Source: Pararhodobacter sp.
Lineage (GTDB): Bacteria > Pseudomonadota > Alphaproteobacteria > Rhodobacterales > Rhodobacteraceae
Length of the DNA stretch: 41,357 nt
Assembly (NCBI GenBank): GCA_020832665.1
Contig: JAFIEG010000037.1
Location: 1 to 41,357 of the forward strand
Reading direction: 5' to 3'
Positions 121 through 37,557 of the stretch are shown one piece after another (positions within the stretch are counted from its first letter, which is position 1; every line of letters begins with the position of its first letter). The notes beneath the pieces are model-generated. The model saw nothing but the letters and a program-made list of their open reading frames with translations, did no database searches and was not told the DNA's origin. The translations under genes were made by a program, and so were the position numbers.

Positions 121-149
121 ATGAGTATTTTCGGCAAGATGAAGGGGGT
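121..149 (+). repeat. Tail-only copy of the dispersed intergenic element
   Basis: Bases 124-144 match the conserved tail of the three-hairpin element (AGTATTT, then a variable base, GGC, AAGATGAAG) with two differences from the copy at 14314. The upstream hairpins are not recognisable. It lies immediately before the start codon at 155, so its final G-run may also serve as a ribosome binding site. Confidence 0.65.
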
Positions 150-2743: not shown

Positions 2744-2807
2744 CCCCTTCATCTTGCCCCAAATACTCCGGGGGGAGTCCGCGCAGCGGCCGGGGGGCAG
2801 CGCCCCC
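2744..2807 (-). repeat. Dispersed three-hairpin intergenic element, copy B
   Basis: Read on the minus strand, the element starts 11 bases after the stop of the M48 gene. It has hairpin 1 GGGGGC-GCT-GCCCCC (2793-2807), hairpin 2 GGCCGC-TGC-GCGGAC (2777-2791, one mismatch), hairpin 3 CTCC-CCCC-GGAG (2766-2777) and a conserved 21-nt tail (2747-2767). It fills the space between convergent fpr and the M48 gene and could terminate or protect either 3' end. Confidence 0.8.
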
Positions 2808-2818
2808 TTATTTCCCGC

Positions 2819-3514
2819 CTACCCGGCAGCGCCACCACCCAGCCAGCGTTCCTCCAGCGCCTCGATGGCGCGGATGCGATCGGCGCTTGATGGGTGGCTG
2901 GCCATCCATACCGGCGGGCCGCCGGCATGGCCGGTGATCTGCTCGAGCTTGGCAAAAAGCGATTTCTGCGGCACGGTGCCGATGCCGGAGCGGGTCAGCA
3001 GCGCCGCGGCGTATTCGTCGGCGGCGTATTCGTCGCTGCGGCTCAGCCCGGCGGCCATCAGCGTTACCAGCCCGCTGGCAATGAGCGCGCCGATGCCGGG
3101 CAGGAAGCGGTTGAGCACGCCCGCCAGCACCACGCGGATGGCGTTCTGGCCCGAGAAATCGATCATCCGCTTGCGGGTGTGGCCCAGCGCCACATGGCCC
3201 AGCTCATGCGCGATGACCGAGGCCAGCTCTTCGGCGCTCACCTCGCCGCGGCGGTAGCGATCCATGAAGCCGCGGGTGATGAAGATGCGCCCGTCGGGTG
3301 CCGCCAGCCCGTTCACCGGCGCGATCTCGTAAACCTGCACCCTGATCTCGGGCAGATCGAGCGCGCGCGCCATGCGGTCGGTCAGCGCCTTGAGGCGCGG
3401 ATCGCGCAAGGGCGCCGAGCGCGCGCTCAACTCGCGCCGCGTGCGCCAGGCCGAGAACTGATACATCAACAGCCCGTAGGCGATGATCAGCACGATGGGC
3501 AGGAATTTTGTCAT
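2819..3514 (-). CDS. M48-family membrane zinc metallopeptidase
   Basis: A 231-residue protein with an N-terminal transmembrane segment (residues 4-21) and the M48 catalytic site: HELGH at 103-107 supplies two zinc ligands and the catalytic Glu, and the third ligand is probably E162 in SDEYAADEYAA. A second hydrophobic stretch (about 125-157) follows the HELGH helix. Relatives such as HtpX act in membrane-protein quality control. The ATG at 3514 is preferred because family members begin directly with the hydrophobic segment; an upstream in-frame ATG at 3595 would add 27 basic residues with no Shine-Dalgarno sequence. It lies downstream of the acidic protein gene, separated by two strong hairpins. 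Confidence 0.88.
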   Translation of the reverse strand: MTKFLPIVLIIAYGLLMYQFSAWRTRRELSARSAPLRDPRLKALTDRMARALDLPEIRVQVYEIAPVNGLAAPDGRIFITRGFMDRYRRGEVSAEELASVIAHELGHVALGHTRKRMIDFSGQNAIRVVLAGVLNRFLPGIGALIASGLVTLMAAGLSRSDEYAADEYAAALLTRSGIGTVPQKSLFAKLEQITGHAGGPPVWMASHPSSADRIRAIEALEERWLGGGAAG

Positions 3515-3598
3515 GTTCCAGATATGGCGCGCCGAAGCCCGCGCTGCAAGGCCGGCCTTGCGGGCGCGCTTGCCGGCGGGGCGGGGCAGGCGCATGGG

Positions 3599-8088: not shown

Positions 8089-8189
8089 GCGTCAGCCCAG
8101 CGCAGGGCCGGGTCCCGTTAAGTCGCTTGCATGGCTGCAGGCCGCGCCGGATACTGAAGCCTGCGCCATTGCGCCAATCGGAGAGAATC

Positions 8190-9368
8190 ATGTTGCCTGC
8201 TTTTTCCGTTCGCGGCTTCGGTCTTGCCTGCCAGCCTGTTGCACGGCCGCAATCGCGTGCTCGGGCGGACTGGCCCTTGCTGCGCTTTCTTGTAAGGGGC
8301 CTGGTGGCACTTGCCGCTGCGCTGATCGTCGCGGCGCCGCCCGCGCCGGCTTCGGCCGATGGCGCGCGCACCGGCGGCGGGGCAGGGGGCGTCGATGCGC
8401 TGCTCGCCCCCTTCGAGAGCGGCGCACCGATGCCGCCGTTGATTGCCGGGCTGCCGCTGGCCGAGGGGCGTGCCTATGCCATCCTCGTGCAGATCGTGCC
8501 GCCTTATGTGGCGAATATGCAAGACCCCAACAGCGTGCGCCGCGCCATGATCCGCGGGCTGAACCCGATCGCCGTCGAGCGTGCCGGCACCCAGCTGGGC
8601 CATGCCATGGTGGGCTGGCGCTGCGCCGACGGGCGCTTTGGGCTGACCGGCAAGACCAGCGAGGATTCGGAACTGGGCGAGGCGATGCTGCGCGATGGCT
8701 GGGGCATGGCGGCGGTTCTGTCGGAATTCCGTTTCGGCCGACTGCACCGGCTTGACGAGCTTGATCCGGGCTGGCTGCGCGCGCTTGAACGAGGCGCGGT
8801 GCGGGTGGTGGCTTTCGAGATCGGCGCCGCCGACTGCCAGCGCATGCGCCAAGCTCTGGCGCGCTACCTTACCCATCCGCAGCGCCCCGAGATCCGCTAT
8901 ACCAACCTGCCCGACCCGGCGCTTATGCGCGGCGATGGCTGCGCCAGCTTCGCGCTGTGGCTGGCCGGCGAGGGCGGGGTGTTCGCCGGCATCGGGCGCG
9001 ATCTGTTCTGGCGCGAGGTCGAGCTGCGCGATTCCTTCATCGGCCACGGCACCGAGGTGCCCGAAGGGGTGGTGCCCTTCCGCATGGCCGAGCCGGGCCA
9101 CGAGATTGGCGTGCTGCGGCTGATGCTCGGCGACTGGAGCACGGGGCGCGTGCTGGGCCGGGCGCGCGGGATCGACCCCGAATTGATGACCCTGGCGCTC
9201 GATCGCGCCTATGCCAGAGCGGGCCAGCCGCGCGAGCGCCGGCTGCCGGGTGATGATGCGCTGGCGCAACGCGTCGACGCCGCAGCCGAGCGCTGGCTTG
9301 GCGGCTTCGGGCGCATCACCCCGGTGCGCATGGGGCGTGCGCGGGCGGTGGTCATGCACCGGCGCTGA
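8190..9368 (+). CDS. Exported protein of unknown function, paralog 2
   Basis: A 392-residue protein with a long basic N-terminus, then a signal-like hydrophobic segment (about residues 29-51) ending PAPASADG, likely cleaved after ASA. From residue 68 (GVDALLAPFE) it aligns along its whole length with paralog 1, roughly half the residues identical by eye. LGHAMVGWRCADG (His138, Cys145), RVVAFEIGAADC, RYTNLPDP, GCASFALWLA (Cys251) and RWLGGFGRITPVRMGRARAVV are all conserved. GGAGAG lies just upstream of the ATG at 8190. The 101-base gap to paralog 1 suggests a tandem duplication and probable co-transcription. The unchanged His, Cys and Asp-rich motifs suggest both copies are active. Confidence 0.7.
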   Translation: MLPAFSVRGFGLACQPVARPQSRARADWPLLRFLVRGLVALAAALIVAAPPAPASADGARTGGGAGGVDALLAPFESGAPMPPLIAGLPLAEGRAYAILVQIVPPYVANMQDPNSVRRAMIRGLNPIAVERAGTQLGHAMVGWRCADGRFGLTGKTSEDSELGEAMLRDGWGMAAVLSEFRFGRLHRLDELDPGWLRALERGAVRVVAFEIGAADCQRMRQALARYLTHPQRPEIRYTNLPDPALMRGDGCASFALWLAGEGGVFAGIGRDLFWREVELRDSFIGHGTEVPEGVVPFRMAEPGHEIGVLRLMLGDWSTGRVLGRARGIDPELMTLALDRAYARAGQPRERRLPGDDALAQRVDAAAERWLGGFGRITPVRMGRARAVVMHRR

Positions 9369-9497
9369 TGGGGGCGGGCCAAGGGGGGCTTGGCACCGGC
9401 GCAGGGGCGCGCCCCGCGAGACAGCCTGCCCTTTGGTTTCACCGGTGGCGAAGGCGCTAGCTGCCACCCAGTCCTGCCTGGCCCGGAGCCAACCGCC

Positions 9498-10499
9498 ATG
9501 ACCCCGACACAATCGCGCCCCTCTCCGCCCCGGCCCCCGTTGGCCCCGGCGCCGGGCTTGTGGCGGCGCACCCCGCCGGCGATCTTTCCGCCGCTGATGG
9601 GGCTTTTCGGGCTGGGGCTGGGCTGGCGGATGCTGGCCGATCTTGCCGGCAGCAGCACGCTTGCCGGCTTGGCCGAGGCCTTCCTGGGCGCCGTGTCGCT
9701 GCTTTTTGCCTTTGCCTTTGTCGCCTGGCTGGCGAAGCCTCTGCGCCGTCCCTCGGTGCTGGTCGAAGAACTTTCGGTACTGCCTGGGCGCGCCGGGGTG
9801 GCGGCGGCAGCGCTGTGCCTGATGCTGCTGGCCGTGGCGCTGCTGCCCTATGGTTTTGTGCTGGCCGGCGCCAGCCTTGCCGCCGGGGTGGCGCTTCTGG
9901 CGCTGACCGGGGCGCTGGTTCTGCGCGCCTGGATCGCCGGCCCGGCTGAGGCGCGGCAGCTCAGCCCGGCCTTTCACCTGATCTTCGTGGGCTACATCAT
10001 CGCGGCGCTGACGCTGGTGCCGCTGGGGCAGGTGGGGCTGGCGCGGGCGGTGTTCTGGCTCACACTGCCAATTGCCGGGGCGATCTGGGCGTTCAGCCTG
10101 GGGCAGTTCGCCCGCCGCGTTCCGCCGGCGCCACTGCGCCCGCTGCTGGCCATCCATGCCGCCCCCGCCGCCCTGTTCGCCCTTGTCGCCGCGCAGCTCG
10201 GATGGGCGATGACGGCGGCAGGGTTTGCGTTCATGGCGCTGGCGCTGGTGGTGGCAATGGCGGTCTCGGCGCGCTGGCTGCTGGCGTCGGGGTTCAGCGC
10301 CATGTGGGGGGCGCTGACCTTTCCGCTGGCGGCGAGCGCCAATGCCGTGCTGGCAGCACTGCCCGGCGCGGCGGGGCTTTGGACGGGGGCGGCGCTGCTG
10401 TTCGCAGCGACGATGCTCAACCCCTTCGTGGCGCAGCGCGTGCTGCGCAGCTGGGCGCGCGGAGGGCTGGCGGCGCAGACCAACGCCGCCACGGCGTGA
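9498..10499 (+). CDS. TDT/SLAC1-TehA-family membrane protein
   Basis: A 333-residue protein with about ten hydrophobic segments from residue 28 on, preceded by a Pro-rich cytoplasmic tail. The opening PAIFPPLMGLFGLGLGWR and the later PLAASAN and FHLIFVGYIIAALTLVPLGQ are typical of the tellurite-resistance/dicarboxylate (TDT) and SLAC1 anion-channel family. Members conduct anions or exclude toxic oxyanions; the substrate here is unknown. CGGAG lies about 10 bases before the ATG at 9498. It follows the exported pair on the same strand after 129 bases, and converges with the short regulator at 10570. Confidence 0.75.
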   Translation: MTPTQSRPSPPRPPLAPAPGLWRRTPPAIFPPLMGLFGLGLGWRMLADLAGSSTLAGLAEAFLGAVSLLFAFAFVAWLAKPLRRPSVLVEELSVLPGRAGVAAAALCLMLLAVALLPYGFVLAGASLAAGVALLALTGALVLRAWIAGPAEARQLSPAFHLIFVGYIIAALTLVPLGQVGLARAVFWLTLPIAGAIWAFSLGQFARRVPPAPLRPLLAIHAAPAALFALVAAQLGWAMTAAGFAFMALALVVAMAVSARWLLASGFSAMWGALTFPLAASANAVLAALPGAAGLWTGAALLFAATMLNPFVAQRVLRSWARGGLAAQTNAATA

Positions 10500-10569
10500 G
10501 AGCGAAATCCGCTTGATTGGTTCGGTGTCATCCGAACCACCTGCCAAGTGCTTTCGCCGCTTCCGGCCA

Positions 10570-10923
10570 TCAACCGGGCTGAATGCCGGCCTGGGGCAGA
10601 AGCGTGGCGATCTTGTTGAGCAGGCTTTGCGCGGCGCGAGCGCGCGCCTTGTCGGGCCCGTTGGCCTGCGCGCGCAGCCCCGCCACCAGCGCTGCCAACT
10701 CATCCTGCGTCAGAACCGTCGGCGGCAGCACCAGCGGCTGTCGCAGCACATAGCCAAGGCCGCGCTCGCCCTCGACCGGCAGCCCGGTGGCGGCCATCAT
10801 CGCCATGTCGCGCCAGATGGTGCGGGTGGAAACCCCCAGCGCGCGGGCCAGCTCGGCCGCCGTGCGCAGCTTGCCGTCGCGCATGATCTGCACGAGATCG
10901 TAAAGGCGCTGGTCGCGTTTCAT
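10570..10923 (-). CDS. Short YafY/DeoR-like HTH regulator lacking the WYL domain
   Basis: A 117-residue protein. Residues 1-60 are a winged helix-turn-helix of the YafY type (RDQRLYDLVQIMRDGKLRTAAELARALGVSTRTIWRDMAMMAATGLPVEGERGLGYVLR). Residues 62-117 are a short helical tail (PTVLTQDELAALVAGLRAQ..LLNKIATLLP) that corresponds only to the beginning of the usual C-terminal region. Full YafY-family proteins have about 220-320 residues and a WYL ligand-binding domain, so this one is either naturally short or truncated. The ATG at 10923 is the family start. A perfect CTGACA-N6-TGTCAG palindrome 44-61 bases upstream is a likely self-operator, and it also lies upstream of tatA. Confidence 0.75.
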   Translation of the reverse strand: MKRDQRLYDLVQIMRDGKLRTAAELARALGVSTRTIWRDMAMMAATGLPVEGERGLGYVLRQPLVLPPTVLTQDELAALVAGLRAQANGPDKARARAAQSLLNKIATLLPQAGIQPG

Positions 10924-10966
10924 CCTGTCTGCCGCATGGCTGCCTGCCACCCGCAATGGGGGGCAA

Positions 10967-10984
10967 CTGACAAAATACTGTCAG
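10967..10984. promoter_or_regulatory. Palindromic operator CTGACA-N6-TGTCAG
   Basis: A perfect 6+6 inverted repeat (CTGACA at 10967-10972, TGTCAG at 10979-10984) with an AT-rich spacer, in the divergent region between the HTH gene and tatA. Such TGACA...TGTCA palindromes are common before self-regulated YafY-like genes. Confidence 0.5.
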
Positions 10985-11023
10985 CAGAGTCGGTCCGCCA
11001 GCCCCCAATCGCCGTATTCGGGC

Positions 11024-11052
11024 TTTGATCCGCGCCGCCGGGCCAATAAATA
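11024..11052 (+). promoter_or_regulatory. Probable tatABC promoter
   Basis: TTTGAT (11024-11029) and TAAATA (11047-11052) are separated by 17 bases. They lie about 70 bases before tatA and are the only good -35/-10 pair in that gap. Confidence 0.45.
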
Positions 11053-11119
11053 GAGCCCGAACGCATGAACAAAATGCCCCGGCGCCGGGCCGGGCGCGAC
11101 CCGCAGACAGGAGGCAATC

Positions 11120-11392
11120 ATGCTCGACGCGCAGATGGTAACGCCGCTTTTCATCAACAATGCCGGCCCCTGGGGGCTGCTTCTCATAGCCATCGTGGTG
11201 CTGGTGCTGTTTGGGCGCGGCAAGATCGCCGGGCTGATGGGCGAGGTGGGCAAGGGCATCACCGCCTTCAAGAAGGGCGTCAAGGATGGCAGCGAAGAGC
11301 TCGAGGACCGGAGCAATGCCGCCGAGGACGAAACCGACGGCGTCACGAGCGCCCGCGACGTGACGCCGTCGCGCGACCGCGATAACGCGTGA
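11120..11392 (+). CDS. tatA: Twin-arginine translocase subunit TatA
   Basis: A 90-residue subunit that forms the protein-conducting part of the Tat system in the inner membrane. One transmembrane helix (about residues 17-31, GPWGLLLIAIVVLVLFG) is followed by the FGRGKI hinge, an amphipathic helix (AGLMGEVGKGITAFKKGVKDG) and an acidic tail. AGGAGG (11109-11114) lies five bases before the ATG, so this start is well supported. It gives an unusually long N-terminal segment of about 16 residues (MLDAQMVTPLFINNAG) before the helix, where most TatA proteins have only a few residues. First gene of tatABC. Confidence 0.93.
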   Translation: MLDAQMVTPLFINNAGPWGLLLIAIVVLVLFGRGKIAGLMGEVGKGITAFKKGVKDGSEELEDRSNAAEDETDGVTSARDVTPSRDRDNA

Positions 11393-11459
11393 ATTCGGGC
11401 GCGTGAACTTGGGCCTGAGCGCGGCGCGCCCGTTGCGCCGTTGCTGAAGGGGGCACCGG

Positions 11460-12446
11460 ATGCTGGATATCGGCTGGACCGAACTTCTGATCATCGGCGT
11501 GGTGGCGCTGGTCGTGGTGGGCCCGAAAGACCTGCCGAAGATGTTTCGCGCGTTGGGCGAATTCACCGGCAAGGCGCGGGCGATGGCGCGCGAGTTCCAG
11601 CGGGCGATGGAATCGGCCGCCGACGAGGCCGGGGTCAAGGATGTCGCGCGCGACCTGCGCGACACCGCCTCGGGGCGCAAGCTGCGCGAGGCGGCGGGGC
11701 TGGACGAGATGGAGCGTGATTTCCGCGATATCGAGCGCGAGATGCGCTTCGATGAAAAGGGCGGCAAATCCGCTGCCGGCAAACCCGCCGGCGGCAAACC
11801 GGGCACAAGGCCGTCTGCCGCCGCTGCCGGGGCCGATACAACCGGCGATGATGGCGGCGAATTCGACGAAGAGGGCGCTGACGATCTGATCGCGGCCGAG
11901 CACGACGCCGATCTGGCGCGCAAGGCCGGCGGCAGCGCCCGCGAGGCCCAGCGGCAAAAGCGCGCCGAAAGCGCCACCGAGGCAAGGCGCAAGGCCGCCG
12001 AAATCCGTGCCCGCCGCGAAGAGGGGGGCGGTGGCAAACCCGCGCCCGCTGCAAGCAGCCCTGCGCCGGTGTCGCGGAACCCGGCGGCAAGGGGGGGCGG
12101 GGACAAAGCCGCCTCGGGCGACGCCGTGGCAAGCGGCAAGCCCGCCGCGCCCCGCGCCGCTGCCGGCAAGGCAAGTGCCGCAGGCGACAAGCCCGCCGCC
12201 AGCAAGCCGGCAGCCAGCGCCAGCACCACGCCCGCGCGGCGCAAACCAGCGGCGAAGGATGGCAGGGACAGCGCCAAGGCCACCGCCACCACCAGCAAGC
12301 GCGCCCCCGCAGCCGCCAAGCCGAAAGTCCCCGTCAGCAAGCGCGCCAGCTCTGCCACTGCCGAGAAGGGCCCCCAGGCCAAGACCAGGAAAAGCCCCGG
12401 CGGTGACACCCCCGCGCTCGATGGCGACCCGCCGCGCGGCGGCTGA
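11460..12446 (+). CDS. tatB: Twin-arginine translocase subunit TatB with long Ala/Lys/Pro-rich tail
   Basis: TatB binds TatC to form the receptor for twin-arginine signal peptides. The N-terminal helix and hinge are typical ([26 protein letters not shown]), followed by the amphipathic helix [23 protein letters not shown]. The first roughly 100 residues are ordinary. The remaining 230 are low-complexity: Lys/Ala/Gly/Pro/Ser-rich with [14 protein letters not shown] and SKPAASAS type repeats and a Glu/Arg helical patch at about 145-190, similar in composition to histone H1. At 328 residues it is about twice the usual TatB length. The tail should be cytoplasmic and disordered. Confidence 0.92.
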
Positions 12447-12532
12447 GGTGCGCCCCGCGCGGCGATGGCGCGGTGCCCGCTGGCACGACGCCCGGCTGAT
12501 GATGAAACCGGTTTCAGGATGATGTGACCACC

Positions 12533-13411
12533 ATGCCCAGCTCTGCAAACCCGGCGAAAGGCAAGCCCGAAGACGTGATCGAAGACAGCGCCGCGCCGCT
12601 GGTCGAGCATCTGGCCGAGCTGCGCTCGCGCATCATCCGCTCGCTGCTTGCCTTTGTCGTGGCGATGATGATCGCCTTCTATTTCTGGAACCCGATCTTC
12701 AATTTCCTCACCCAGCCGCTATGCGATGCGCTTGAAGCGCGCGGGCAGGAATGCAACCTGATCCTGATCCAGCTGCAGGAGGGCTTCTTCGTCGCCATTC
12801 GCATCGCCATGCTGGGCGGGTTCGTCATGGCCTTTCCGATCATCGCCTCGCAGATGTGGCGCTTCGTGGCGCCGGGGCTGTATCGCTCGGAAAAATCGGC
12901 CTTCCTGCCCTTTCTGATCGCCTCGCCGGGTATGTTCCTGCTTGGCGCGGCCTTCGCCTTTTACGTTGTCACGCCGCTGGCCTTTACCTTCTTCCTGGGC
13001 TTCCAGCAGCCGGGGGTGCTGATGGGGGGCGAGGCCGTCGAGGGTGAGAACCCGCTGGCGCAGGCCGGCATCACCTTTCAGGGCTCGGTCAATGAATATC
13101 TGTCGCTGACCACGCGCTTCATCATCGCCTTCGGCATGTGCTTTCAGCTGCCGGTGCTGCTGACGCTGATGGGCAAGGCGGGGCTGGTTTCGTCCGAGGG
13201 GCTGAGGAGCGGGCGCAAATGGGCGGTGGTGGGGATTCTCACGCTGGCGGCCTTTGTCACGCCGCCCGATGTGATCACCCAGATCATCCTGTTCACCGTG
13301 GTTTACGGGCTTTACGAGGTATCGATCCAGCTGGTGCGCTGGGTCGAGCGCAAGCGTCGCGAGGAGCTGGCCGCCGAGGGGCTGCTCGATGACGAGGACG
13401 AGTTGCCATGA
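12533..13411 (+). CDS. tatC: Twin-arginine translocase subunit TatC
   Basis: A roughly 292-residue polytopic membrane protein that recognises twin-arginine signal peptides. The N-terminal cytoplasmic motif [12 protein letters not shown] contains the conserved HLxELRxR. Six transmembrane segments follow, with [17 protein letters not shown] between TM2 and TM3 and [13 protein letters not shown] near the end. An insert between TM3 and TM4 ([27 protein letters not shown]) is in the usual place for alphaproteobacterial TatC. The start is uncertain: ATG at 12533 is given, and a GTG at 12524 adds three residues. AGGAT at 12516 is spaced poorly for either. The stop overlaps the next start as ATGA. 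Confidence 0.95.
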
Positions 13412-14289
13412 GCGCGGATGACGCCGCGCCATTCCCCGCAAGGGCAGACCAGGCCGAGGCGCTGGCGCGCATCGCCGCGGCGCTGGAGCGCATGACCCCG
13501 CCGCCGGCGCCGGTGCCCGATTTCGCCGGTGCCGATGCCTTCATCTGGCATGTCGGCCCCGACCGGCTGGAGCCGGTGGCGCAGGTGGCGCGGGTGGATC
13601 TGTCGCTGTTGCAGGGCATCGAGCGCGCACGCGACACCTTGCTGGCCAACACGCTGCAATTCGCCCGCGGCTTTGGCGCCAACAACGCGCTCTTGTGGGG
13701 CGCCCGCGGGATGGGCAAATCCTCGCTGGTCAAGGCCGTGCATGCCGAGGTGCTGGCGCGCGGCGCTTCGTGCAAGCTGGTCGAGATCCAGCGCGAGGAT
13801 CTGCCGTCGGTGGGCCGGCTGCTGGGCCATCTGCGCCGCGCCGCCGATCAGCGCTTCGTGCTGTTTTGCGACGATCTGAGCTTTTCGCATGACGATCAGC
13901 ACTACAAATCGCTGAAAGCGGTGCTCGATGGCGGCATCGAGGGGCGCCCGGCGAATGTGATCCTCTATGCCACCTCGAACCGGCGCCACCTGATGCCGCG
14001 CGACATGATCGAGAACGAGCGCTCAACCGCCATCAGCCCCTCCGAGGCGGTGGAAGAGAAGGTTTCGCTGTCGGATCGCTTCGGGCTGTGGCTGGGCTTT
14101 CACCCCTGCACGCAGGATGAATACCTGGCCATGATCGAGGGCTATTGCGCGGCTGCGGGGCTGGAGGTGGCGCCGGAACGGTTGCGCGCCGAGGCGATCG
14201 AATGGCAGGCCACGCGCGGGGCGCGCTCGGGGCGGGTGGCCTGGCAGTTCTTCTGCGACCTCGCCGGGCGGCTGGGGCGCGCGGTTTAG
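13408..14289 (+). CDS. DUF815-family AAA-type ATPase
   Basis: A 293-residue cytoplasmic P-loop ATPase. Walker [10 protein letters not shown] is at 98-106 and Walker [10 protein letters not shown] at 151-159. The family signature [28 protein letters not shown], including sensor-1 Asn, follows, and then [17 protein letters not shown]. The N-terminal 60 residues are helical. DUF815 proteins are widespread with no established function. The start overlaps the tatC stop by four bases (ATGA), which implies translational coupling; I recall the same order in other Rhodobacterales. An accessory role in Tat export or membrane-complex assembly is possible but unproven. Confidence 0.88.
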
Positions 14290-14313: not shown

Positions 14314-14378
14314 GGGGGGCGCTGCCCCCCGTCCGCTTCGCGGACTCCCCCCGGAGTATTTGGGGCAAGATGAAGGGG
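14314..14378 (+). repeat. Dispersed three-hairpin intergenic element, copy C
   Basis: Hairpin 1 is GGGGGC-GCT-GCCCCC (14315-14329), hairpin 2 GTCCGC-TTC-GCGGAC (14331-14345), hairpin 3 CTCC-CCCC-GGAG (14345-14356), and the conserved tail runs 14355-14375. The element points in the same direction as the DUF815 gene, just after its stop, between convergent genes. Confidence 0.85.
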
Positions 14379-14413: not shown

Positions 14414-14851
14414 TTACAACCCCCTGAGCCAGCGGCGCAGGCGCGCGGCGTTCACGCCCCTGTCGGAGCGGCCGAAGCGCGAGCGCGAAAAGGCTGCCAG
14501 ATGCGTGCCGCCGACCTCTGCCGGCTCCAGTCGGAAGCTCACGAAATCCGGGTACCGCATCAGCCTGGTGCGGGCGATATAGGTGAAATGCCGCGCATCG
14601 CCGGTCAGCAACTGCGCCCCCTCGGCGCGGGCGGCGGCATCGATGCGCGCGCGCAATTCATCCGGGGGCAGGGGGCTGATGCGCTCGATGCGCGCGAAAT
14701 TCGGCGTGGCCGGGTCGGGCGCCGCCACCGGATCGACATGCCAGCGCGCCGGGTCCGATGGCGCCATGCGCACCCAAAGCGCGAAGGCCAGGAAGCCGAG
14801 CACGGCCAGCGCGAGTATGGCAAGAAGCGTGGTCAAGGCCCGTCCATTCAT
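14414..14851 (-). CDS. DUF1499 family protein with N-terminal membrane anchor
   Basis: A 145-residue protein. Residues 6-27 form one hydrophobic segment (TTLLAILALAVLGFLAFALWV), so the rest is likely periplasmic. The DUF1499 core shows FARIERISPLPPDELRARIDAAA, HFTYIARTRLMRYPDFVSFRLEP and the C-terminal family hallmark AAFSRSRFGRSDRGVNAARLRRWL. The biochemical function of the family is unknown. The length is typical. It is transcribed alone, convergent with the tat operon and in the same direction as agmatinase upstream (103-base gap). Confidence 0.85.
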   Translation of the reverse strand: MNGRALTTLLAILALAVLGFLAFALWVRMAPSDPARWHVDPVAAPDPATPNFARIERISPLPPDELRARIDAAARAEGAQLLTGDARHFTYIARTRLMRYPDFVSFRLEPAEVGGTHLAAFSRSRFGRSDRGVNAARLRRWLRGL

Positions 14852-21206: not shown

Positions 21207-21415
21207 ATTGATTCCTGAATGCATTCTCGCCTGCTGCGCTATCACAAGGCCCGGCCGAGCAGCAAGCGCGGCCTCTTGCCGCATCCGGCGCGGGTGGCGG
21301 GGTCAAGGCGCTTCGAAGAGCCGTGTTCGCTGCCGCGGCGGTGGCTTTCCAGCGCCGGGGGCGCATGAAAAAGGGGGCGCGCGCCCCCTTTCGCCCGGCC
21401 CGCAAGCGCGGATTG

Positions 21416-34643: not shown

Positions 34644-35276
34644 TCAATACCCCATAGGCGCGATCAGGCGGCGAAAGGCGGCCAGCGGGTCGGGCGCTTC
34701 CCAGATCTCGGTGCCGAGCGCGACGAAATCCACCACCGGCGCCAGCTCGCCCACCAGTTCCGGGCTCAGCGCCCCCTCGGCCACCACCGGCACCTCGATC
34801 ATCTCTGACCACCAGGCAAACAGCTCGCGCCCGGCGCGGGCCTCGGCGCCTGTTCCCAACCCGGTCTCGCCGGCGGGCGCGAAGCTGACATAGTCGGCGC
34901 CGGCCTCGGCAGCATTGATCCCCTCATGGCGCGAGGCGCCGCAATCGGCGCCGATGATGAAATCGCCCCCCAGCCGCGCGCGCAGCTTGCGAATGCCACC
35001 CGTCCCGCGCGGCAGATGCACCCCGTCCAGCCCCAGCCGCTCGGCCAGCACGACATGGCTTTCCATGACCAGCGCGATGTCGCGCGCATGCGCCAGCTCG
35101 CGCAGCGCATCGGCGGCGCGAGCGATGCGCGCCTCGTCGCCGCCGGCCAACGCCAGGCGCAGACAGGCCACCGGCGCGGCATCGAGCACCGTCGAGAGGA
35201 CCGGAACGAATTCATCGATCTCGAAAGCCGCCGGGGTAATCAGGTAAAGCTGCGGGCGGTCGGGCTGGTCAGACAT
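34644..35276 (-). CDS. Thiamine-phosphate synthase-like protein
   Basis: A 210-residue TIM-barrel protein of the ThiE/TenI superfamily. It starts PQLYLITP and has VACLRLALAGGD, LVMESHVVLAERLGLDGVHLPRGTGGIRKLR, IGADCGASRHEGINAAEAGADYVSFAPAG and a C-terminal PVVAEGALSPELVGELAPVVDFVALGTEIW. True ThiE uses ...GxDGVHLGQxD and a phosphate loop GGI; here the motifs are only partly kept (HLPRGTG, EGAL), so the protein may be a divergent paralog with another role. It is not next to other thiamine genes. A 241-base upstream gap contains the repeat copy D. Confidence 0.75.
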   Translation of the reverse strand: MSDQPDRPQLYLITPAAFEIDEFVPVLSTVLDAAPVACLRLALAGGDEARIARAADALRELAHARDIALVMESHVVLAERLGLDGVHLPRGTGGIRKLRARLGGDFIIGADCGASRHEGINAAEAGADYVSFAPAGETGLGTGAEARAGRELFAWWSEMIEVPVVAEGALSPELVGELAPVVDFVALGTEIWEAPDPLAAFRRLIAPMGY

Positions 35277-35441: not shown

Positions 35442-35517
35442 CTTCATCTTGCCCGAAATACTCCGGGGGGAGTCCAGCCTCGGCCCCGAGGCTGGACGGG
35501 GGGCAGCGCCCCCCCCC
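35442..35517 (-). repeat. Dispersed three-hairpin intergenic element, copy D (long middle stem)
   Basis: On the minus strand the element begins immediately after the hom stop codon. It has hairpin 1 GGGGGC-GCT-GCCCCC (35499-35513), a perfect 12-bp hairpin 2 with arms GTCCAGCCTCGG and CCGAGGCTGGAC (35472-35497), hairpin 3 CTCC-CCCC-GGAG (35461-35472) and the conserved tail (35442-35462). The middle stem is wholly different in sequence from copy C yet fully paired. Confidence 0.85.
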
Positions 35518-36804
35518 TCATACCTCCTCGATGCGCAGCGCCACCGGCTCGCCCACCACCACCCCGGTGCCCGGCAGCGCCGCCATGGCGTGGCGGATAT
35601 CGTCGCTCGAGGCCTTGTGGGTGACAATCAGCACCGGCGCCTGGGCATCGTCATGGCCATACTGGCGCATCCGGTCGATCGAGATGCCTGTCTCGCCCAG
35701 AAGCGTGGCCACCTTTGCCAGCGCCCCGGGCTTGTCGAGAAGAACCATGCGCAGATACCATTGCGCGCCGGTCGAGACCGCTGCCGGCGGTGCTGCCACC
35801 AGGCTGGTGGCGGGCTGGCCGAAGACCGGCAGGCGCATCCCGCGCGCGATGTCGATGACATCGCCCATCACCGCGCTTGCCGTCGGCCCCTCGCCGGCGC
35901 CGGCGCCGCGCAGCACGATCTGGCCCACCGAATCGCCCTCGATCACCACCATGTTGGTGCCGCCATCGAGCTGCGCCAGCGGGTGGTGCTCGGGCACCAG
36001 GCAGGGGGTCATGCGCTGCTCCAGCCCGCGCCCGGTCATCTGCGCCACGCCCAGAAGCTTGATCGCATAGCCCATGTCGCGCGCCAGACGGATGTCATGG
36101 GTCGCGATCGCGCCGATGCCCTGCAGCTCGATGGCATCGAAATCCACCCGGCAGCCAAAGGCCAGCGCCGCCAGGAGGCTGAGCTTGTGCGCGGCGTCGA
36201 TGCCGCCGACATCCAGCTCGGGGTCGGCCTCCAGAAAGCCCAGCTGGCGGGCCTCTTCGAAAACCGTCTCATAGCTCAGCCCGGCGCTTTCCATGCGCGT
36301 GAGGATATAGTTGCAGGTGCCGTTCATCACCCCCATGACGCGCAGCACCTCATTGCCCGCCAGCCCTTCGCCCAGGGCCTTGATCACCGGAATGCCGCCC
36401 GCCACCGCCGCCTCGAAGCGCAGCGCCCGTCCCGCCGCCTCGGCGCGTTCGGCCAGCGCCTGACCATGATGGGCCAGCAGTGCCTTGTTGGCGGTGACCA
36501 CATCCTTCCCGGCATCGAGCGCGGCCTCGACGCTGGCCTTGGCCGGACCATCCTCGCCGCCCATCAGCTCGATCACCAGATCGACATCCTCGCGCCGGGC
36601 CATCGCCACCGGGTCGTCCTCCCAGCCATAGGCCGAGATATCGGCGCTACGGTTCTTCTGGCGCGAGCGGGCGCTGACCGCGGTGATCTCGACGGGCCGG
36701 CCGGCGCGCGCGGCGATCATCGCGCCGTGGCGCTGGACGATCTTCACCACTCCGATGCCGACGGTGCCCAGACCAATGATGCCCAGGCGAAGGGGGCTTG
36801 TCAT
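35518..36804 (-). CDS. hom: Homoserine dehydrogenase
   Basis: A 428-residue enzyme reducing aspartate semialdehyde to homoserine for threonine, methionine and isoleucine synthesis. The NAD(P)-binding GLGTVG is at 11-16, followed by TANKALL (104-110), VAGGIPVIKAL and MGVMNGTCNYILTRM, and the substrate region EADPELDVGGIDAAHKLSLLAALAFG. The C-terminal ACT domain, about 350-428 (YLRMVLLDKPGALAKVATLLGETGISIDRMRQYG), probably binds threonine for feedback inhibition. The ATG at 36804 is chosen because relatives start MTxPLRLGIIGLGTVG; an in-frame ATG at 36867 is unlikely. It is followed directly by repeat element D. Confidence 0.96.
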   Translation of the reverse strand: MTSPLRLGIIGLGTVGIGVVKIVQRHGAMIAARAGRPVEITAVSARSRQKNRSADISAYGWEDDPVAMARREDVDLVIELMGGEDGPAKASVEAALDAGKDVVTANKALLAHHGQALAERAEAAGRALRFEAAVAGGIPVIKALGEGLAGNEVLRVMGVMNGTCNYILTRMESAGLSYETVFEEARQLGFLEADPELDVGGIDAAHKLSLLAALAFGCRVDFDAIELQGIGAIATHDIRLARDMGYAIKLLGVAQMTGRGLEQRMTPCLVPEHHPLAQLDGGTNMVVIEGDSVGQIVLRGAGAGEGPTASAVMGDVIDIARGMRLPVFGQPATSLVAAPPAAVSTGAQWYLRMVLLDKPGALAKVATLLGETGISIDRMRQYGHDDAQAPVLIVTHKASSDDIRHAMAALPGTGVVVGEPVALRIEEV

Positions 36805-36920
36805 GTACAGGACTCCGGGTTTGTCAGGGCATGCGCGGCCCCGGTCTGGGCGCGTGTTAATGCCCAAGGCCGCGGCTGTGAAGCGCTTTCTGGCCGGTTC
36901 TTCGCGGCGAGGGGTAAAGC

Positions 36921-36980
36921 GGGGCGCCGCCCCCCGCCCGCTGCGCGGGCTGCCCGCAGAGTATTTCGGGCAGGTTGAAG
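36921..36980 (+). repeat. Dispersed three-hairpin intergenic element, copy E
   Basis: Hairpin 1 is GGGGC-GCC-GCCCC (36921-36933), hairpin 2 GCCCGC-TGC-GCGGGC (36936-36950), hairpin 3 CTGC-CC-GCAG (36950-36959), and the tail is at 36960-36980 (AGTATTT, CGGGCAGG, TTGAAG). It is oriented opposite to both flanking genes, with the tail next to the msrB stop at 36988. Hairpin 2 differs from copy C by a paired T-A to C-G change. Confidence 0.8.
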
Positions 36981-36987
36981 CAGTGCG

Positions 36988-37557
36988 TCAGTCGGGCCGA
37001 AAGGCCATCGCAAGGCCGTTGATGCAGTGGCGCAGCCCGGTGGGTTGCGGTCCATCCTCGAAGACATGGCCCAGATGGCCGCCGCAGCGGGCGCAATGCA
37101 CCTCGGTGCGGCGCATGAAGAAGCTGGTGTCGATGGCATAGCCGACCGCGCCCTCGATCTCCTGCCAGAAGCTGGGCCAGCCGGTGCGGCTGTCGTATTT
37201 CGTCTCGGAGCGGTAGAGCGGGTTGCCGCAACCGGCACAAAGATAGCTGCCGGCGCGTGATTCGTTCAGGAGCGGCGAGCGCTCGCCCATCAGCGAATTG
37301 GTGAAAGGCTGTTCGGTGGCATGCTCGCGCAGCACGGCAAATTGCGCCGGGCTCAGCCGCGCGCGCCATTCCTCTTCGCTCAGGCTTATCTCGAAATTCG
37401 CGCCTTCATCTGTGGCGGCATGGCCGACACCGGCCCGTCTGCCGCCAGCACCCAGCGCCAGCGCGCCAACCCCGGCCAGCAGCGCCGCACCCATGAACAC
37501 CCGGCGCGGCAGCGCCCCAGACCTTTCCCGCCCCGGCAACCGGTCGCGCTGTGTCAA
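36988..37557 (-). CDS. msrB: Exported methionine-R-sulfoxide reductase with twin-arginine signal
   Basis: A 189-residue protein. The N-terminus carries a Tat-type signal: PRRVFMGAALLAGVGALALGAGG with twin Arg at 18-19, then HAATDE as a likely cleavage area. The MsrB domain has the two zinc-binding pairs CAGC and CARC, GWPSFW, HCARCGGHLGHVFEDGP, and the catalytic Cys in RHCINGLAMAF. It repairs oxidised methionine, here probably in the periplasm. The start codon is TTG, supported by AAGGAG about 10 bases upstream; the next ATG (residue 22) would remove the twin-arginine motif. Confidence 0.9.
   Translation of the reverse strand: MTQRDRLPGRERSGALPRRVFMGAALLAGVGALALGAGGRRAGVGHAATDEGANFEISLSEEEWRARLSPAQFAVLREHATEQPFTNSLMGERSPLLNESRAGSYLCAGCGNPLYRSETKYDSRTGWPSFWQEIEGAVGYAIDTSFFMRRTEVHCARCGGHLGHVFEDGPQPTGLRHCINGLAMAFRPD

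Follow-up and report, generated by a model that had tools for sequence, protein, structure and literature searches.

Introduction

Among the interspersed repeats of bacteria, REP/BIME elements are short intergenic palindromes that are present in many copies, avoid divergent regions and turn over; they carry a GTAG/GGAG foot and are associated with a RAYT (Y1) transposase. Another class of dispersed sequence comprises polar chromosomal signals such as KOPS, which are bound by the FtsK gamma domain. KOPS/AIMS are reported to be non-palindromic, strand-biased 8-bp motifs that prefer the leading strands, with a bias rising towards the terminus (PMC5993296, PMC13342612).

The element described here has something in common with both. 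Like REP/BIME, it is short, palindromic, intergenic and many-copy, it avoids divergent regions and its sites turn over; unlike them, its constant part is a 20-base 3′ tail and not a GTAG-footed palindrome, its hairpins are exchangeable, and its genome has no recognisable Y1 transposase. Like KOPS/AIMS, it is non-palindromic and strand-biased, and in one genome (G009) its sign changes where the GC skew does, but it is 20 bp long instead of 8 bp, lies between genes in tens to about 140 copies per genome, and its arm polarity was not found in two of the four genomes tested. As in a Rho-independent terminator, a stretch containing Ts comes after a G/C hairpin, and the site is often close to a stop codon; unlike a terminator, however, the element has no proper U-run, its orientation is not tied to genes, and 12 conserved bases lie further on. 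A search of the open-licence literature found no description of this repeat, the letters matching only in unrelated papers.

Results

The window, i.e., the whole stretch of 41,357 nucleotides that was analysed, is a complete contig (C102) of a Pararhodobacter draft genome of 4.19 Mb in 157 contigs (G000). The initial annotation had placed five intergenic copies of one element in the window, and all five were found at those positions (Table 1): the tail pattern AGTATTTNNGGCAAGATGAAG with up to three mismatches gave five matches, versus 0.01 expected from 100 dinucleotide shuffles. It was also right that three full copies follow stop codons, since copies B, C and D start 12, 25 and 1 bases past a stop and are oriented along that gene; copy E is oriented against both of its neighbours. 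The genes were called with a home-made caller, and Pfam matches agree for the tested called genes adjoining the five copies. No tRNA or tmRNA was found in the window. Two open minus-strand frames, 636 codons at 10700-12610 and 861 codons at 8118-10703, have no Pfam match; the codon model puts the genes there on the opposite strand, one with a TatA/B-family match, followed by TatC.

Table 1. Copies of the element in the window and their surroundings
Feature	Position	Strand	Composition	Neighbouring genes
Copy A	124..144	+	tail alone, without G/C hairpin	10 bases upstream of the start of a phospholipid methyltransferase-like gene (155-601 +)
Copy B	2744..2807	-	hairpin 1, hairpin 2, C-run, tail 2747-2767	convergent: oxidoreductase 1909-2736 +, M48 peptidase 2819-3595 -
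Copy C	14314..14378	+	G6-loop-C6, hairpin GTCCGC/GCGGAC, C6, tail 14355-14375	convergent: DUF815 gene 13408-14289 +, DUF1499 gene 14414-14851 -
Tail of copy C	14355..14375	+	constant part of the family; proposed recognition site	
Copy D	35442..35517	-	long hairpin 2, tail 35442-35462	directly after the stop of homoserine dehydrogenase (35518-36867 -), before the TMP-TENI gene (34644-35276 -)
Copy E	36921..36980	+	tail 36960-36980, 2 mismatches	both antisense to the tail: homoserine dehydrogenase, SelR gene 36988-37500 -

In its own genome the family comprises about 140 copies between genes. With up to two mismatches, AGTATTTNNGGCAAGATGAAG matched 127 times and its reversed control not at all, while the 20-mer GTATTTNNGGCAAGATGAAG (the tail without its first base) matched 142 times at up to two mismatches and 173 times at up to three, 90 of the matches listed being exact. 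The own tails aligned with their flanks were the best 90 of the 127, and two-mismatch copies are therefore under-represented among them. Over 63-77 bases, copy C shares about 90-98% identity with many places in its own genome and in other genomes of the genus. At least 14 own copies, copy A included, are no more than 150 bases away from a contig end (contigs C8, C22, C24, C26, C33, C44, C70, C73, C76, C93, C99, C102, C118 and C121), and the repeats seem to break the assembly.

A usual copy consists, in this order, of a G-run, a short loop, a C-run, a variable hairpin 2, a second C-run, GG and [A/C]GTATTT-NN-GGCAAGATGAAG. Only the tail, non-palindromic and built of two blocks (RTATTT-NN-12 bp), is constant; the part upstream is exchangeable and may be made of G/C hairpins, of a short hairpin of the GCCTCCGGCGGG type, of a long palindrome with another sequence or of TTTTG alone. 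The tail had been annotated as AGTATTT-N-GGG, which stood as regards its being fixed and had to be corrected as regards the spacer (NN, not N plus GGG), copy E being off at two positions. Furthermore, a hairpin 3 (CTCC/GGAG) did not hold up as a family feature, as it can form in at most 10 of 28 aligned copies, the others having no GGAG there; in these 28 copies the bases after the second C-run are mostly GGCGTATTT or GGAGTATTT, and the conserved columns contain no GTAG foot. The G-loop-C-x-C layout was seen in 51 of the 76 own tails with 100 bases upstream and in 74 of 187 from other genomes, a 3-base linker replacing hairpin 2 in 25 of these 74 foreign copies. The two C-runs are equal in length in 38/51 own copies (24.3 expected from shuffling) and 57/74 foreign ones (27.7 expected), so that the G-run could pair with either C-run, switching its partner (e.g., in 14314-14354). 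The spacer of the tail is free: in 20 pairs of tails at shared sites, mismatches averaged 1.3 in the two spacer positions vs. 0.55 in the 18 fixed ones, a figure biased low by selecting the pairs by the tail on both sides, and the flanks differed at 8.25 and 9.45 positions per 18 bases.

The annotated compensatory changes in hairpin 2 were confirmed by a significant covariation test on 28 own copies hand-picked from 53 listed. Two-sided changes occurred in 6/6 pairs (4.0 in shuffles; 24/500 as high) and in 27 cells (7.8 in shuffles; 0/500 as high), compared to only 3 cells changed on one side, and the covariation score was 0.233 vs. 0.082 in shuffles (0/500 as high). RNAalifold, run unaided on the same alignment, predicted hairpin 1 and not hairpin 2. 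The stems of hairpin 2 seem to be replaced whole, which fits DNA palindromes. Three sets, each without internal duplicates, gave 42, 25 and 26 linkers of at least 12 bases, and a stem of at least five pairs is present in 79 of these 93. As 66 of these 79 stems are perfect palindromes and the mismatches comprise 3 G-T vs. 10 A-C, the tail strand, on which selection on RNA should tolerate G-U, bears no signature of wobble pairing; the excess of A-C, which is G-U on the opposite strand, is not significant (p 0.09). Compensatory changes are expected equally of DNA palindromes and structured RNA, and the case serves as a warning that covariation in bacterial intergenic repeats is not proof of RNA. 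Thus, the view that the selected structure is probably RNA found no support as to its RNA part, the G-U signature being absent, 66 tails in tandem gene pairs lying against the genes and the orientation going with the locally G-rich strand.

Rfam gave no match at the gathering threshold, in agreement with the initial annotation, which knew of no described function, and a known RNA family was rejected on this ground; at a lax threshold, the best sub-threshold match of copy C had an E-value of 0.098. A terminator scan flagged none of the four full copies in the direction of the tail, and hairpin 1 of copy B in the opposite direction. By the home-made gene calls, the next gene starts no more than 35 bases beyond the element in 15 of the 22 own copies along tandem genes, too short a distance for a terminator to be followed by a promoter. 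A promoter role was rejected because 27/69 own tails point towards the end of a gene that converges on them. The sequence AAAAGGGGGCGCGCGCCCCCTTT at 21374-21390 of the window, a simple G/C stem accompanied by runs of A and T, may illustrate the usual appearance of terminator-like sites here.

That the element is common in Rhodobacteraceae proved correct: a wider skeleton, RTATTTNNNNMMARADGAAR, was found in 69 of 100 sampled genera/genomes of the family, at least five times in 54 of them, 31 being without a match and 46 having fewer than five. The canonical tail with up to two mismatches was present in 60 of the 100 genomes of the window's family. G068 and G098 are without the wider skeleton, yet they hold 34 and 17 canonical-type tails. 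In the class, the wider skeleton is at background level, with matches in 63/190 genomes, a maximum of 6 outside the family and a reversed control of similar size. Named contigs with the exact pattern (at least 110 stretches) are nearly all from Rhodobacteraceae in the older, wide sense among the matches listed, the family label resting on record names; the exceptions among these matches are a Tenacibaculum contig, one Hyphomicrobiales MAG and a few MAGs labelled no further than Alphaproteobacteria. Phage records did not match the element, and 4 of the 10 viral contigs with the exact pattern have it in A/T-rich sequence unlike the element; phage origin was rejected on these grounds.

Individual sites turn over within the genus, the nearest member of which is about 85% identical. 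At the site of copy C, a whole tail was present in none of 16 congeners, of which G105 and G106 were read only 250 bases past DUF815, with the far-side gene unaligned; G102 has GGCACGATGAAG there, perhaps a remnant of the tail. By eye, three congeners carry other G/C-hairpin repeats at this site and seven carry GTAGGGTG-type palindromic repeats, which thus resemble our element in the intergenic site they occupy and differ from it in having no tail. At the site of copy D, one of 15 congeners, G100, has a tail, in the form of the longer variant ATATTTTCGGACACAAAATGAAG, which was missed by the search pattern and seen by eye. When 37 congener tails were compared with 83 own tails, both flanks were common to three (L440/L101, L446/L074 and L451/L124). 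More widely, locus pairs with both flanks homologous comprised 29 in the same orientation (L034 and L230 among them being a single place) vs. 9 inverted, only L187/L007 among the latter not being explained by two tails in one locus. Some sites are common to different genera with the orientation kept, and where a site is shared, the hairpin before the tail often differs entirely or is lacking. At one own locus (L120), the left flank matches one copy in G112 and the right flank another, inverted, about 12 kb apart (L478 and L449, at about 50 kb and 38 kb of contig C2); such a pattern would be expected if two elements had recombined and inverted the stretch between them.

The tail core differs between genera: it is ATATTTNNGGCAAAATGAAG in G009, GCCAAGATGAAG in G039, GAAAAGAAGAAG in G086 and GACAGATGAAA in G028, and Parasedimentitalea, Phaeobacter and Leisingera each have GGAAAGATGA in one replicon. 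Several genomes, e.g., G010 and G035, have more than one subfamily. Within the genus, 40 places were fetched, 39 of them with a tail; they had been picked for likeness to copy C or D and are mostly of the G/C-hairpin type. The core is GGACAG at 6/6 places in G110, five of which read GGACAGATGAAG; it is GGCAAAATGAAR at 4/4 places in G105 and GGCAAGATGA at 16/16 places in G101, G102, G103 and G112 as well as 5/5 in G100, while G109 and G111 are mixed, 3 to 1 each. Moreover, orthologous sites may carry different cores, as in G110 L446 vs. own L074 (flanks 85 and 86% identical), G009 L317 vs. Aquicoccus L150, and G039 L039 vs. own L103. Either the drift of a binding protein or rapid recopying would lead to such differences between cores.

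The orientation of tails was determined in six sets with one gene model, that of the own genome, leaving out tails near locus ends (Table 2). In tandem gene pairs, 103 tails (61%) lie along and 66 (39%) against both genes; the direction along genes is weak, and it is reversed in G035. Convergent regions hold 92 tails vs. 10 in divergent ones, compared to 39 vs. 56 (G116 stretches) and 36 vs. 65 (G035 stretches) for all intergenic regions. The expected enrichment at gene 3′ ends thus held for placement by gene ends, as an avoidance of divergent regions more than as a direction along genes.

Table 2. Orientation of tails relative to genes and to local GC skew (element excluded)
Set	Tails	Along	Against	Convergent	Divergent	Other	Skew positive along tail	Skew positive, tails against both genes
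Own genome	69	22	14	27	4	2	58	11
G116	30	15	6	8	0	1	28	6
G009	30	10	6	12	2	0	28	4
Named contigs	103	44	23	29	2	5	82	11
G035	31	5	11	13	2	0	23	9
G073	17	7	6	3	0	1	11 (not significant, p 0.33)	1

Local GC skew predicts the direction of the tail better than gene direction does. Tails are oriented with the G-rich strand in 80-93% of cases in four data sets and in 74% and 65% in the two others; as a rough, unsimulated estimate, a G-rich motif falling on a G-rich strand would, by its composition alone, show this orientation in about two thirds of cases. When tails lie against both genes, skew along them is positive in 42/66, the link failing for this class in the named contigs (11/23) and G073 (1/6). 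In tail-free control regions, with the same gene model used for those of G035, the flank skew was positive along tandem genes in 12/17, 65/113, 61/117 and 83/128. Own tails in tandem pairs run along the genes in 20/23 cases on the G-rich strand and in 2/13 on the C-rich strand. These data allow us to conclude that the strand rather than the gene sets the direction of the tail in most sets.

In G009, with its single 3.56-Mb contig, tails with up to two mismatches point forward on one arm and in reverse on the other in 65/72 cases (0/2000 shuffles as good), and 10 of 14 further tails with three mismatches agree with the replichores. The polarity changes sign where the local GC skew does, and at two of the exceptions, at 828 and 840 kb, the local skew is reversed too. 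Since the sign change lies at 2.78 Mb and dnaA at 3.22 Mb, the origin of G009 was placed by skew and not by dnaA. In G116, with dnaA at 0.42 Mb, polarity was 36/50 (106/1000 shuffles as good), or 33/50 when counted from dnaA, the ter half giving 17/22 vs. 16/28 for the ori half (p 0.23). Replichore polarity was not found in G035 (28/44; 951/1000 shuffles as good) or in contig 1 of G073 (23/33; 717/1000). A universal replichore polarity, present in G009 and not in G035 or G073, was accordingly demoted. The link to skew in G116 is local: in stretches chosen where polarity was poor, it was seen for 18/20 tails within 1.5 kb, 11/20 at 1.5-4 kb and 10-11/20 beyond. We conclude that replication is one cause of the strand skew rather than a proven driver of orientation.

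Discussion

We propose that the element is a REP-like interspersed DNA repeat of Rhodobacteraceae whose 20-base tail is a functional core read by a putative trans-acting protein, and we rate the chances of this reading as about even. It is suggested by a strict tail with two free positions, hairpins that are exchangeable but palindromic, the turnover of sites, near-identical 65-base copies at unrelated sites, species-specific cores and, in most data sets, orientation with the locally G-rich strand. The near-identical copies, the cores and the link to the strand were observed, and what we infer from them is the protein, the single strand and the act of copying. The protein would read the RTATTT-NN-12 bp tail in double- or single-stranded DNA, the hairpins would act as single-stranded DNA structures, and the element would be copied or inserted with a fixed orientation towards the G-rich strand, which is often the lagging template, with the tail and the protein drifting together. 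Several points count against this reading. PF01797 does not match in the own genome, replichore polarity is not general, and the skew link is local in G116 and not significant in G073. Some sites are moreover shared between genera in the same orientation, and a purely mobile repeat does not call for so much conservation. As to the reader, we tentatively suggest, without expecting it to be the likelier outcome, a DNA-binding Rhodobacteraceae protein that recognises a single-stranded hairpin plus tail on the G-rich strand and copies it without a RAYT, its specificity changing from species to species and tens of sites per genome being rewritten together.

An ordinary REP/BIME family that has lost its RAYT transposase, or in which the transposase persists in few genomes, would also account for intergenic palindromes in more than 100 copies that avoid divergent regions and turn over. 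We consider it quite improbable, because PF01797 had no match in the own genome (E 0.001, a cutoff at which a diverged Y1 transposase could be missed) and because the repeats of a lost transposase would hardly persist with new species-specific cores. PF01797 matches were found in 2 of 17 congeners, and no tail lies near the fetched Y1 matches (L061, L062, L063, L066 and L067). The weak match in G104 (L066, about 1501-1972) has an inverted GTAGGGTG pair about 100 bases beyond it and not the tail element; the two may be one of the genus's ordinary RAYT/REP pairs, separate from the tail element. The 3 kb fetched around the G110 match contain neither. A RAYT was rejected as the reader on these grounds, and no candidate for the reader protein emerged.

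Strictness of sequence around two free positions, orientation that tracks the strand more than the genes, some sites kept across genera in the same orientation and the arm polarity of G009 with its sign change at the skew would also be expected of a host-selected polar signal, i.e., a non-palindromic protein site guiding segregation or replication on each arm (KOPS/AIMS- or Ter-like), with the hairpins as passengers. Such a signal is unlikely: polarity is absent in G035 and G073 and weak in G116, the sites of copies C and D are mostly not kept within the genus, and many genomes of the family have no wider skeleton or fewer than five copies of it. A role at transcript 3′ ends, as an attenuating terminator, an RNase E site or an mRNA stabiliser with the tail serving as U-rich end and RNA-binding site, appears rather unlikely as well. 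It would explain the strong hairpin directly before RTATTT in many copies, the canonical-looking hairpin plus T-run directly before the tail in a few named contigs (e.g., L181 and L232), the excess of convergent over divergent placement and the majority of tandem-pair tails along the genes. It does not readily explain the 39% that lie against both genes, the own tandem tails on the C-rich strand, the absence of a G-U signature from the stems and of terminator matches in the tail direction, or the copy between bchX and bchY in the bacteriochlorophyll gene run of a Roseinatronobacter plasmid (L408, NZ_CP121115.1 86162-86223).

The REP-like reading brings with it a chance that the reader protein is of a new kind. 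Should the reader turn out to be a strand-transfer enzyme of a new type or a factor that organises the chromosome, it would be new in either case, and this for an abundant intergenic repeat in a large, much studied marine family. The species-specific cores give a key for finding it, as the partner must vary in step with them. For tests of strand effects, G009 (L060, L299-L327) is a good genome, having an almost perfect tail polarity and a strong strand skew with means of 0.11 to 0.19 along the tails.
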